Shown here one piece after another: positions 18,801-50,325 of a DNA stretch of 64,000 nt. Below the pieces are notes generated by a model that searched no databases, was not told the origin of the DNA, and saw nothing but the letters and a program-made list of their open reading frames with translations. Every line of letters begins with the position of its first letter. The stretch's first letter is position 1. The position numbers and the translations under genes were made by a program. Source of the DNA: Segetibacter sp. 3557_3 (GTDB taxonomy: Bacteria > Bacteroidota > Bacteroidia > Chitinophagales > Chitinophagaceae); assembly GCF_004354985.1 (NCBI RefSeq), contig NZ_SMSK01000007.1:186001-250000 (forward strand). The letters run 5' to 3'.

Positions 18801-18854
18801 AAAATACCCAAACTCCCTCTTAAAGGCAGTTGGAATCCTGTTGAATAAAGATAT

Positions 18855-18945
18855 CGGTATAAGAGTGCGACGCCCGAACGTGCCCTTCGGTTCGGGCGGG
18901 CAACCGAAGTCCAATGGCTGTTCCAAAAGCCGGTTCAGAAAATTC
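18855..18945 (+). repeat. Dispersed repeat copy
   Basis: Contains GTATAAGAGTGCGACGCCC, close to GTACAAGAGTGCGACGCCC of the copy at 28734-28926, then a GC-rich insert with an internal palindrome (CCCGAACG...TTCGGTTCGGG) and a CAAC... GTTCCAAAAGCCGG tail. It lies at the 3' side of the sulfatase gene. Confidence 0.6.
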
Positions 18946-27695: not shown

Positions 27696-27883
27696 ACAAG
27701 GACTTACAAGTTAACAATCGCACACACACGGTATGCCTGATGCCAAAAATGGCCCGGTTTTAATCAGGCAGGAACAACGGTTTAAAGATACATGCGCTGC
27801 ATGAATTGAAGAAGAATATTCGAAGTAATGATGAACTATGAAAGCAGGAGTCTCTAACTATGTTGAATGCTAAATGTTATATT

Positions 27884-28069
27884 AACGTCGTCTAATTAAG
27901 GTGAGCGGCAGAATTTGGTGAATAAAGCGATGCGGCCCAAGGGAGTGACACCCCCTTCCGAACCGAGTTCATCCGGGCGGGCGTCCGAACAGGGTTCATC
28001 CGGGCGGCAACGATGGCAAATAGAATCCGCATAGCTGGCCACCAAAAATTTTCTTAAGTAAACAACATT
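27884..28069 (+). repeat. Dispersed repeat, long form, copy A
   Basis: Diverged ends AACGTCGTCTAATTAAG (27884-27900) and CTTAAGTAAACAACATT (28053-28069) are inverted repeats of each other with four mismatches. Inside are AATAAAGC, GGAGTGACACCCC, a GC-rich insert with two TTCATCCGGGCGG units, CAACGATGG, and an A-rich stretch, in the same order as in copy D. Confidence 0.7.
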
Positions 28070-28162
28070 GAATGTTATTTGAGGAATGATTGTGAGTGAT
28101 GAATGCAGGATCAAAGCGATATGTTGGATGTAGAATCATAGCTGAGGTACCGGTGTGTGATA

Positions 28163-28224
28163 GTTTTTTGGAGGCCGGCGGAAGTACCCTTGTGAGACTC
28201 CGGTTGTGTCACTCACTTTTACGG
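28163..28224 (-). repeat. Dispersed repeat, short form (reverse orientation)
   Basis: On the minus strand it reads GTAAAAGTGAGTGACACAAC, then a variable part, then GCCGGCCTCCAAAAAAC. The GTGAGTGACACAAC core matches the copies at 43926-43985 and 50262-50325, defining a second sequence type of the family. Confidence 0.6.
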
Positions 28225-28335
28225 CAACAAGGCTATTGAACACTTGAAGAGTTATGATTTTAGCATTATTACTGAAGAGTGCAGGTAGATATGAGTGAGA
28301 AAGAGGTTGAAAATAGGAATGATGAGTTATGAGTG

Positions 28336-28520
28336 GATGTTGTGTATGTAAGCCGCCTGGCAAGTGATTAGCTCAATAATGCTATGCAGTACAAGTGTGC
28401 GATGCCCCGGCCCAACCCGGTTCATCCGGGCGGGCGTACTACTGGCGCAGCCGGGCTCGCAACGATTTACAATTGAAATCCTGTAATTGTCTCCAAAATA
28501 AATTGCTTAGCTAAATGACT
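28336..28520 (+). repeat. Dispersed repeat, long form, copy B
   Basis: Internal order: AGCTCAATAATGCTATGC, GTACAAGTGTGCGATGCCCC, a GC-rich insert with TTCATCCGGGCGGGCG and ACTGGCGCAGCCGGG, CAACGAT, and a right end TTGCTTAGCTAAATGACT. The left end (from about 28336) is a weak inverted match to the right end, so this is an older copy. Confidence 0.65.
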
Positions 28521-28574
28521 TGGAGCGATGAGTGTTGTATTTTGAGTGTAAAGTTGTAAATTATGATAGCAGAC

Positions 28575-28711
28575 TCAATGTCGTTTAGTTAAGCCGATTA
28601 TGTAATTTGTTTGCCCAGCTACTTCCAATCGTACAAGAGTGCGACGCAACGATGTCCTATAGAATTCCTGTGGCCGGGTCCATAAAAATTTGCTTAACTA
28701 AACGGCATTGA
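28575..28711 (+). repeat. Dispersed repeat, compact copy C with near-perfect terminal inverted repeats
   Basis: Left end TCAATGTCGTTTAGTTAAGC (28575-28594) and right end GCTTAACTAAACGGCATTGA (28692-28711) are inverted repeats with one mismatch in 20. The interior has GTACAAGAGTGCGACGCAAC, GATG and GGCCGGGTCCATAAAAA without the GC-rich insert of copies A, B and D. The 7-mer GCAGACT occurs on both sides (28569-28575 and 28714-28720), which may be a target-site duplication. Confidence 0.8.
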
Positions 28712-28733
28712 TTGCAGACTTATGAATCATGAG

Positions 28734-28926
28734 TCAATGTCGTTTAGTTAAGCCGCTTGTCGGATGGAATTTGCTCAATAAAGCTCAGCCGTACAAGAGT
28801 GCGACGCCCCCGTCCGAATGGCTTCAGCCGGGCGGACGTCCGACTGGCGCAGCCGGCCGGGCAACGATGTTCCATAGGCGTTCTTATGCCGGGTCCAAAA
28901 ACAAACTTGTTAACTAAACGACATGG
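28734..28926 (+). repeat. Dispersed repeat, long form, copy D
   Basis: Left end TCAATGTCGTTTAGTTAAGC (28734-28753) is identical to copy C; the right end TTAACTAAACGACAT (28910-28924) is its perfect inverted counterpart. The core GTACAAGAGTGCGACGCCCC is followed by a GC-rich insert (CGTCCGAATGG...CCGGGCGGACGTCCGACTGG) and then CAACGATGTTCC and TGCCGGGTCCAAAAAC. It is the best long-form copy. Confidence 0.8.
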
Positions 28927-29124
28927 AATTATGAGCGATGAGTGTAGAATTAAGTGTTAAGATTTATGAGTTAAGCGTGTAGGCAGATATGAGTTTTATG
29001 TATTGACTTAGAGAGATGGGTCCTCCGGCTCAGGGCTGAGATTTTTGACTTTTTGCCTCTTGAATTCTGCATTTTACATTTTGAATTTCACATTTGAAAT
29101 TCTTGTCTTCGACTTTCCCAAACG

Positions 29125-29155
29125 AAAAAAGCCACCCAAATGGGATGGCTTTTTC
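29125..29155 (-). terminator. Terminator downstream of gldJ
   Basis: An A-rich/T-rich flanked stem (AAAAAGCCA with TGGCTTTTT, plus CCC/GGG across one bulged base, loop AAAT) lies 18 bases beyond the end of gldJ. On the minus strand the stem is followed by a T-run, so it should end the gldJ transcript; its symmetry would let it act in both directions. Confidence 0.8.
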
Positions 29156-29172
29156 TTGTATTTACCTTTACC

Positions 29173-30729
29173 TTATCTTTTTTGTCTGCGCTTCGGGAAG
29201 AAGTTACCGGTTTTGCGGTTATTGCCTTCAGGCGAACCCGGGGCAATCATGGCACAACGGAAACCTACCGTATTGCTGCTTTGTCCTTCCTCAAGGAAAC
29301 GGCGGTTACCGGGACTCAACCAATAAGCACGGTCGTTCCAGCTACCACCCTTGATAACCCTTGACTCGTCGGAAACTAGTGTAGTCAGGCCATAACCATA
29401 AGACACGCCGCTTAATGAGTCACCATCCATAAAGTTGATGGCATATGAACGCTGGTAGTTACGACGTTTGCGAAGTGAAGAGTCGGCTTCGTCGATCATC
29501 TTGATACGACCGATGCTGTCTCTGAGATTTCCTTCGCCGCCGCTCATATCAATTTTTTGGAAACGGTTACCACGGAAGGCGTTGAAGTCATCAGCCTCAA
29601 TGTTGGTTAAAGGACGATAAACGTCGGCAACCCACTCGCTCACGTTACCACTCATGTTATAGATACCAAATCCGTTCGGGAAAAATGCTGTTACTTCTGC
29701 CGGAATTGCTGAACGGTCGTTCAAACCACCCGCAACACCCATGTTATCACCGCTACCGCGTTTGAAGTTTGCAAGGAAACTACCCTGCCATGATCCACGG
29801 CGGGTTGCACGCAGGTTGTCGTAGCCATCGTTTTTCCAGGCATAGATCTGCTTGTTTGCAATCAACTCTTCACCACGCTTTTTCTCGCCTGAACGAGCCT
29901 GTGGGTTTTCGCTGATTAAGCCAAGGGCTGCATATTCCCACTCTGCTTCAGTTGGCAAGCGATATCCTGGCAACAAGATACCATCGTCGAACCTTACGTT
30001 TGTACGCGGACGGCCCTGTGCATCCTTCAAGGCATCCTTTTTGGGTTTACCAGGCATACCTGCGTATTCACCCATCAAATATGCTTTTGTGTTGAAGTTG
30101 TCCTGGCCACCACCACCAAGTTCTGTTTTGATGACGTTTTTATTTTGGTAGCCTTCTTTGATGAGTTCATTCTGGTTAACCCTGTCGGTACGCCAGATAC
30201 AAAAGTCATGTGCCTGTTTCCAGGTTACACCAACAACCGGGTAAAAGTTATACGATGGGTGACGGAAATAATATTCTACATAGGGCTCGTTATAGGCGAG
30301 CTCGCTGCGCCATACCAGGGTGTCAGGCTTTGCACCTTCAACCACCTGTGCATATTGCGGATCAGAAAAAACGTTTTCAATCCAGTTAATGTATTCCCGG
30401 TAGTGCACGTTTGCAACCTCGGTTTTATCCATGAAAAACGAATTCACGGTTACACGGCGTGGAATATTGTTCCAATCGCCCATGATGTCTTCAGTAGTCG
30501 CTCCCATAGTGAAAGTACCACCCTGTATGAACACCAATCCCGGACCGGTTTTCATATTTTTTGCCTTTGCCACATTGTAACCACCCATGTTTTTATCATT
30601 GTAGTTCCAACCGGTCATCTCCGACTTCTGTGGCTTCTTCTTGAAAATACCACCATTTTTACAAGAAGCCATTAATGCAATGACTCCCAGCAGCAAAGTG
30701 AAATTTTTCAGTCCCAGTACTTTTTGCAT
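29173..30729 (-). CDS. gldJ: Gliding motility lipoprotein GldJ
   Basis: A 518-residue lipoprotein (signal ending VIALMASC, Cys23) with a formylglycine-generating-enzyme-like fold. The order of blocks is that of GldJ rather than GldK: TGWNYNDKNMGGYN, GPGLVFIQGGTFTMGATTED, DWNNIPRRVTVNSFFMDKTE, YPVVGVTWKQAHDFCIWRTD, LPTEAEWEYAALG, IYNMSGNVSEWVADVYRPL and GGSWNDRAYWLSPGNRRF. GldJ is an outer-membrane lipoprotein needed for gliding motility and for stability of the GldK/type IX secretion machinery. Here it is alone, without gldKLMN beside it. It is not expected to activate the sulfatase at 18972. A terminator follows at 29125-29155. Upstream, TATATTCG on the minus strand is a plausible -7 element. 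Confidence 0.93.
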   Translation of the reverse strand: MQKVLGLKNFTLLLGVIALMASCKNGGIFKKKPQKSEMTGWNYNDKNMGGYNVAKAKNMKTGPGLVFIQGGTFTMGATTEDIMGDWNNIPRRVTVNSFFMDKTEVANVHYREYINWIENVFSDPQYAQVVEGAKPDTLVWRSELAYNEPYVEYYFRHPSYNFYPVVGVTWKQAHDFCIWRTDRVNQNELIKEGYQNKNVIKTELGGGGQDNFNTKAYLMGEYAGMPGKPKKDALKDAQGRPRTNVRFDDGILLPGYRLPTEAEWEYAALGLISENPQARSGEKKRGEELIANKQIYAWKNDGYDNLRATRRGSWQGSFLANFKRGSGDNMGVAGGLNDRSAIPAEVTAFFPNGFGIYNMSGNVSEWVADVYRPLTNIEADDFNAFRGNRFQKIDMSGGEGNLRDSIGRIKMIDEADSSLRKRRNYQRSYAINFMDGDSLSGVSYGYGLTTLVSDESRVIKGGSWNDRAYWLSPGNRRFLEEGQSSNTVGFRCAMIAPGSPEGNNRKTGNFFPKRRQKR

Positions 30730-38048: not shown

Positions 38049-38103
38049 TGATCTTACGGTTCTGGTTAAATAATTAGATTCTGTTCGATGCATATTGATT
38101 TGC

Positions 38104-38170
38104 CGTACAAGAGTGCGACGCAACGATGCTAAATAGCGCTCGATTGCCGGGAGCATAAAAAAACAAACAC
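38104..38170 (+). repeat. Dispersed repeat copy
   Basis: GTACAAGAGTGCGACGCAAC followed by GATG, then TGCCGGGAGCATAAAAAAAC, matching the core and tail of copy C with only small differences. It lies between the DUF2490 gene and tRNA-Cys; clear terminal inverted repeats are missing. Confidence 0.65.
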
Positions 38171-50126: not shown

Positions 50127-50261
50127 ATTTAAGCGACGCAAATGTATTGGTTGAGCTTCGTGCCAGCAAAAAAATCTTTGCCGGCCTGCGGGGGCGAGCC
50201 CCATCTTCCTGATTGCAACCAATTAATCCCATATGGTGGAGGTTTTGCCGCCCAAGGATTT

Positions 50262-50325
50262 AGGGTACAAGTGAGTGACACAACAAAAGATCAATCAAGG
50301 TACCAATGCTGGTCACCAAAAGTCT
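50262..50325 (+). repeat. Dispersed repeat, short form
   Basis: GGGTACAAGTGAGTGACACA, then ACAAAAGATCAATCAAGG, TACC, and TGCTGGTCACCAAAA. The AAAGATCAATCAA part also occurs (as AAAGATCAACCAA) in the copy at 63472-63545, tying the two sequence types together. It lies between tRNA-Ala and the end of gltA. Confidence 0.6.

Follow-up and report, generated by a model that had tools for sequence, protein, structure and literature searches.

The stretch of DNA analyzed here (the window) comprises 64,000 nucleotides of one contig of Segetibacter sp. 3557_3. At positions 27882-28927, an inverted-repeat element is present in four direct copies (190, 191, 137, and 194 bp), together with one reversed repeat that lacks such ends (Table 1). 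A previous sequence-only reading had described this array as four direct copies and one reversed copy with a fixed order of blocks and a GC-rich insert, and had singled out a copy whose ends match at 19 of 20 positions (28575-28711). Our analysis agrees with this description, with inserts of 54 to 56 bp in the window copies, except that the reversed copy has the inner blocks (about 28161-28254) and no terminal repeats. The pattern GTACAAGAGTGCGACGC, with up to 3 mismatches, was found 5 times in the window compared with 0.14 times expected from shuffled sequence, and CAATGTCGTTTAGTTAAG was found 6 times compared with 0.08 times expected. By eye, the ends of copy 2 match the consensus at 13/19 and 15/19 positions, and they were missed at 3 mismatches. 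The shell that bears the ends and the inner blocks (repeat B) are two repeats, each of which occurs without the other, and the GC-rich insert (repeat C) is a third. The window copies fall into different subfamilies (B1 and B2, with and without repeat C). Text of the type TTATGAGTGATGAAT lies around the array (27820-27880, 28080-28350, and 28930-29010) and forms a supply of insertion targets.

Table 1. Repeat elements of the array and free-standing copies of repeat B in the window
Feature	Position	Strand	Remarks
MITE copy 1	27882..28071	+	190 bp; B2-type cargo and GC insert; duplication ATGTTATA / ATGTTATT, 7/8
Repeat C (two units), the GC-rich hairpin insert of copy 1	27952..28007	+	
Reversed repeat B (inner blocks, B2 type), lacking terminal repeats	about 28161..28254	-	nhmmer E 4.3e-8
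MITE copy 2	28334..28524	+	191 bp; ends decayed; duplication GTTATGAG / GCGATGAG, 6/8
GC-rich insert (repeat C) of copy 2	28406..28459	+	
MITE copy 3	28575..28711	+	137 bp; young subfamily; duplication TAGCAGAC / TTGCAGAC, 7/8
Left terminal inverted repeat of copy 3	28575..28594	+	
Right terminal inverted repeat of copy 3	28692..28711	-	19/20 match
Inner repeat B of copy 3	28599..28691	+	core 28631-28654; nhmmer E 2.1e-19
MITE copy 4	28734..28927	+	194 bp; with GC insert; duplication ATCATGAG / ATTATGAG, 7/8
GC-rich insert (repeat C) of copy 4	28808..28861	+	
Free-standing repeat B, no terminal repeats	38089..38162	+	
Free-standing repeat B, another GC hairpin in the equivalent position	18833..18945	+	nhmmer model matches 18833-18874, remainder by reading

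The sequence-only reading had held that finding only these few copies in the genome would count against it, and this was not the case. The element ends are 19 to 20 bp long (TCAATGTCGTTTAGTTAAGC), and their pattern occurs at 201 sites genome-wide (103 forward and 98 reverse), compared with 9 (8 and 1) for the reversed-pattern control. Using the 137-bp copy as the query, we obtained at least 46 genomic matches (the best 40 of 311 first-look candidates were scored); among the matches listed, 16 (the window copy and 15 others) are full or near-full length and 96 to 100% identical. From the window and the fetched loci of this genome, which were picked by ends, core, or GC hairpin, we assembled 52 distinct two-ended elements. 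They measure 115 to 334 bp, contain no transposase gene, and in 47 of the 52 cases carry B as cargo.

Next to the ends, the 8-bp flanks are identical in 20/52 elements and agree at 7 or 8 of 8 positions in 34/52, whereas shuffled pairing predicts 1.5; in the remaining 18, they match at 6 or fewer positions. When flank lengths of 5 to 11 were tried, exact matches appeared at 8 bp only. In a separate flank test, direct repeats of at least 9 bp accompanied 29/53 end-bearing B copies, compared with about 6 from mispaired flanks. The target preference, taken from the 40 elements whose flanks agree at 6 or more of 8 positions, is symmetric and A+T rich (WTnWWnAW), and the commonest duplication is ATTATGAG (4/40). 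In the window, three copies have duplications matching at 7/8 positions and one at 6/8, and all four sequences differ. These elements are MITEs, and the near-identical copies may be taken as an indirect sign of mobilization.

Repeat B is about 80 bp long, with the core GTACAAGAGTGCGACGCAACGATG and a tail near GCCGGGTCCAAAAA. Its core pattern occurs at 192 sites in this genome (111 forward and 81 reverse), with 0 in the reversed-pattern control. Among 59 relatives, B sites are present in 20 and end sites in 14. The relative with the highest B count (G001; G and L numbers designate genomes and loci) has 571 B sites in 4.1 Mb and no end site, and relatives with 232, 166, 115, and 58 B sites likewise have 0 end sites. 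Conversely, B sites are absent from relatives with 20 and 8 end sites, and some genomes hold both. We regard B as an intergenic repeat that is older in this bacterial family and is carried by the shell. B is indeed intergenic, with 4/36 copies lying within an open reading frame call compared with 83% of random positions, and it is placed evenly with respect to the orientation of neighboring genes (13, 13, 6, and 4). ERIC and BOX are likewise intergenic repeats with many copies that are common to a bacterial family, and B resembles them in this habit; unlike them, B has a near-invariant 20-bp core. In 53 copies picked by core, the mean frequency of the majority base is 0.944 in the core and 0.428 and 0.599 on either side of it, and B copies reached via the GC hairpin show core variants. 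Because most copies were picked by the core, selection on it cannot be firmly claimed. Across 95 B copies, we detected one strong covarying pair, which lies inside a 9-bp DNA palindrome (TGCGACGCA / GTGACAC). That this palindrome has been kept may point to a DNA site bound by a protein.

We also considered whether B might be the decayed interior of a MITE and rejected this. Direct repeats of at least 9 bp flank 5/63 non-MITE copies, compared with 4.2 expected, and inverted repeats flanking such copies showed no clear excess. The reading was also rejected because B occurs in genomes without ends. For the B copies of other genomes, the corresponding count was 8/37, compared with 4.8, a slight excess that we do not regard as evidence of duplications. 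Each of the two tRNA genes in the window lies within about 120 bp of a B copy (38089-38162 and 50235-50324). A tie between B and tRNA genes was rejected, as 47 other B loci contained 0 tRNAs and the pairing in the window is probably due to chance. Head-to-head B copies, about 35 to 50 bp apart like REP pairs, are seen at some loci of other genera (L186, L188, L190, L191, and L117).

Repeat C is a 27-bp GC-rich hairpin that occurs in either orientation. Its pattern (CCCGTCCGANNGN6CCGGGCGGG) has 65 genomic sites, compared with 0 for the control. By reading, 25 of 30 fetched C copies are inside B, mostly at GACG^CAAC; the copies outside B are L196, L208, L209, L214, and L222.

The sequence-only reading had called for a transposase gene with matching ends. 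Such a gene was found in relatives, where it is of the IS4 type, and not in this genome, whose assembly gave no IS4 transposase match at an E value of 1e-10. By sequence, the element ends appear to be those of an IS4-family (ISPa1635-like) transposase. The exact 19-bp end is present in at least 114 contig stretches; among the matches listed, 109 are from Bacteroidota and 5 are from MAGs under other names (L251, L253, L279, L297, and L313). In 45 of the 114 stretches listed, no more than 260 bp separates the element end from the edge of the stretch, and the element end reads outward, which suggests assembly breaks at a multicopy IS. In L312, DDE_Tnp_1 pieces of 131 and 228 amino acids in overlapping frames start 28 bp inside an exact end; this transposase is frameshifted and cut off, and the locus has one clear end. 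A homologue of the 228-amino-acid piece at an E value of 1e-10 or better is present in 2/59 relatives. In the first (G034, L358), a 446-amino-acid open reading frame is 67% identical to the piece and scores 159.8 bits against the NCBIfam IS4 model NF033592 (cutoff, 115). Its 5'-side end matches at 18/19 positions, and its second end, at best 11/19, is not recognizable. In the second, a congener (G004, L359), a transposase relic lies between two ends that are 1,277 bp apart.

Beyond these relatives, 1/395 genomes of a class-wide sample had a homologue at an E value of 1e-60 (G419), with 35% identity and one end matching at 16/19 positions. Distant plasmid IS4 elements gave, as raw matches without a chance control, 15 and 15 of 19 positions for Desulfosarcina, 13 and 13 for ISPa1635 of Pseudomonas, and 12 and 16 for Saccharobesus, and no 8-bp duplication was visible in these plasmid copies. 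The IS candidates have both ends in L359, L390, and L392 and one clear end in L312, L358, L389, and L391, with no duplication seen; none of the IS4-type loci examined combines an intact IS, both ends, and a clean duplication. The partner gene has thus been either lost from this genome or missed in its 35-contig draft assembly. A DUF4372 transposase was rejected as the partner: it is present in 1/10 genomes of the genus, absent from this one, and has no close ends. A search of plasmids with the 137-bp element gave no match, and a search of phages gave one 26-base match (E value, 5). In viral contigs, 22 stretches with the pattern were found, and an IS4 protein was confirmed in none of them.

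In other genomes, the same shell carries other cargo. From the 114 listed end loci and 27 loci of relatives, we obtained 57 distinct paired elements, several of them from a single genome or variants within a single family. Their duplications match at 7 or 8 of 8 positions in 36/57 cases. B is carried by 1/57, and a B model matched none of the 114 end loci at an E value of 0.01. The smallest element, at 49 bp (L269, Chitinophaga oryziterrae), has ends that almost abut and a duplication of 8/8 and is perhaps the smallest mobile form. When folding was compared with 25 shuffles each, with sequences cut at 170 bp and 2/57 elements too short to fold, 45/55 shell elements folded at a z of -2 or less (median, -4.2), compared with 17/109 flanks of equal length (median, -0.25). 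An earlier subset, drawn from 80 of the 114 loci, had given 34/39, compared with 9/77 neighboring stretches. This genome is an exception to the hairpin-cargo rule because its B cargo does not fold: a z of -2 or less was seen in 2/30 elements without the insert (median, -0.37) and in 2/22 long elements (median, -0.57). The word "palindromic" in the sequence-only reading thus applies to the ends and the GC insert and not to the inner part as a whole.

Free copies of a cargo were looked for in one genome, of the Prolixibacteraceae, where the hairpin cargo of a shell has 37 matches. Thirty loci were fetched. In 12 of them the cargo is enclosed by ends, which by reading amounts to 8 distinct places, as some were hit twice, and free copies of the cargo without ends are seen at, for example, L406/L408, L409, L410, L411, L416, and L417. 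In one Prolixibacteraceae shell, the cargo (GTCATTGCGAGG...) may resemble the REP or CGTC-tagged class of repeats. Taken together, the shell looks like a vehicle that takes up and spreads the short repeats of its host.

Other readings of the array must be weighed against a MITE with captured cargo. That B itself is the mobile unit, as a REP or REPIN moved by a Y1/RAYT transposase, with the terminal repeats incidental, is improbable. B is abundant and intergenic, it is present in several genera of the family, and it stands head to head at the loci named above. In G001, moreover, B flanks two Y1 loci on both sides, one of them degenerate, and by eye, of the 9 B hits (E value, <1e-5) close to Y1 genes, 8 are directed away from the gene. 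Against this, a Y1/RAYT partner, which the sequence-only reading had proposed to look for, found no backing in the counts, as 4 B copies were near Y1 genes in 32 loci, compared with 3.27 expected, and no Y1 hit was obtained in genomes that hold 166 and 59 B sites. A strict head-to-head B pattern was seen in 1/35 genomes (a sample outside which G033 and G034 fall), the 95 copies have no consensus fold that would make B a conserved hairpin, and the 8-bp duplications sit outside the terminal repeats, not at the edges of B.

The same lack of structure bears on the other possibility raised by the sequence-only reading, a structured RNA, cis-regulatory or small, that is repeated through the genome. 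We consider it very improbable. The fixed order of blocks with variable stretches between them and the conservation of the core (0.944, compared with 0.428 and 0.599) would suit an RNA; however, RNAalifold gave no consensus structure for the 95 copies, the strong covarying pair is within a DNA palindrome, the median folding z is -0.37, and gene orientation shows no preference. No Rfam family matched in the array, the nearest hit being at 29125-29200 with an E value of 0.054, below its cutoff. Finally, it is hardly credible that the array arose from a single insertion by tandem or segmental duplication. The four copies do share one orientation within one kilobase, and their flanking text is partly similar (repeats D4-D6), but they belong to different subfamilies (B1 and B2, with or without C), and each copy has its own target duplication. 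Because the four copies carry four different target duplications, the array represents separate insertions.

Our preferred explanation, in which we have high confidence, is that a non-autonomous MITE with IS4-type ends, moved in trans, has spread a captured B and that the array consists of four of its insertions. A MITE-like element was among the options of the sequence-only reading, and the ends, the 8-bp duplications, the copy number, the near-identical copies, and the matching transposase family in relatives bear it out. A transposase supplied in trans would recognize the 19- to 20-bp ends and, in what was presumably a cut-and-paste reaction, move the element into an A+T-rich WTnWWnAW target, leaving an 8-bp duplication. 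Four separate landings in one gene-free stretch would give the array. The shell carries B as cargo, often with the GC-rich hairpin C inserted in B at a set position, and the capture of B would have come before the spread of the shell.

MITEs as such are known. BrickBuilt of Porphyromonas gingivalis (PMC4596501) is also a MITE of Bacteroidota that, according to its authors, trapped and spread a repeat. It differs in having trapped a 23-nucleotide tandem repeat, in numbering 19 elements in one strain, in its other ends, and in a duplication whose length is not constant, whereas the elements described here have IS4-type ends, 8-bp duplications, and cargo that differs between genomes. With ISPa1635-like IS4 elements there are similar ends and transposase homology, but the window elements have no transposase gene and, by eye, share no sequence beyond the ends. 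B lacks the hairpin and the tag of REP and CGTC-tagged repeats as these are presented in the accessible portion of PMC3733652. The accessible portions of PMC3733652, PMC6006769, PMC4596501, PMC9769881, and PMC10969869 describe neither these ends nor the B core. The literature searched, which most subscription papers lie outside, contained nothing on these ends with exchangeable repeat cargo, nor on B; as far as it shows, the family and its cargo habit are new.

These results tell apart three nested repeats that resemble one, and they give the ends and the targeting rule of a MITE family that is distributed across Bacteroidota. They also expose B as an unnamed intergenic repeat that reaches 571 sites in a 4.1-Mb genome. 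A wider proposal is tentative and may well prove wrong: a phylum-wide shell would take up host hairpin repeats, so that REP-like repeats of Bacteroidota would partly owe their numbers to an IS4 transposase, and B would be a DNA element whose near-invariant, partly palindromic 20-bp core is read by a host protein. Packaging between the ends of one IS would then be a possible, testable route by which unrelated REP-like repeats may reach high copy number.
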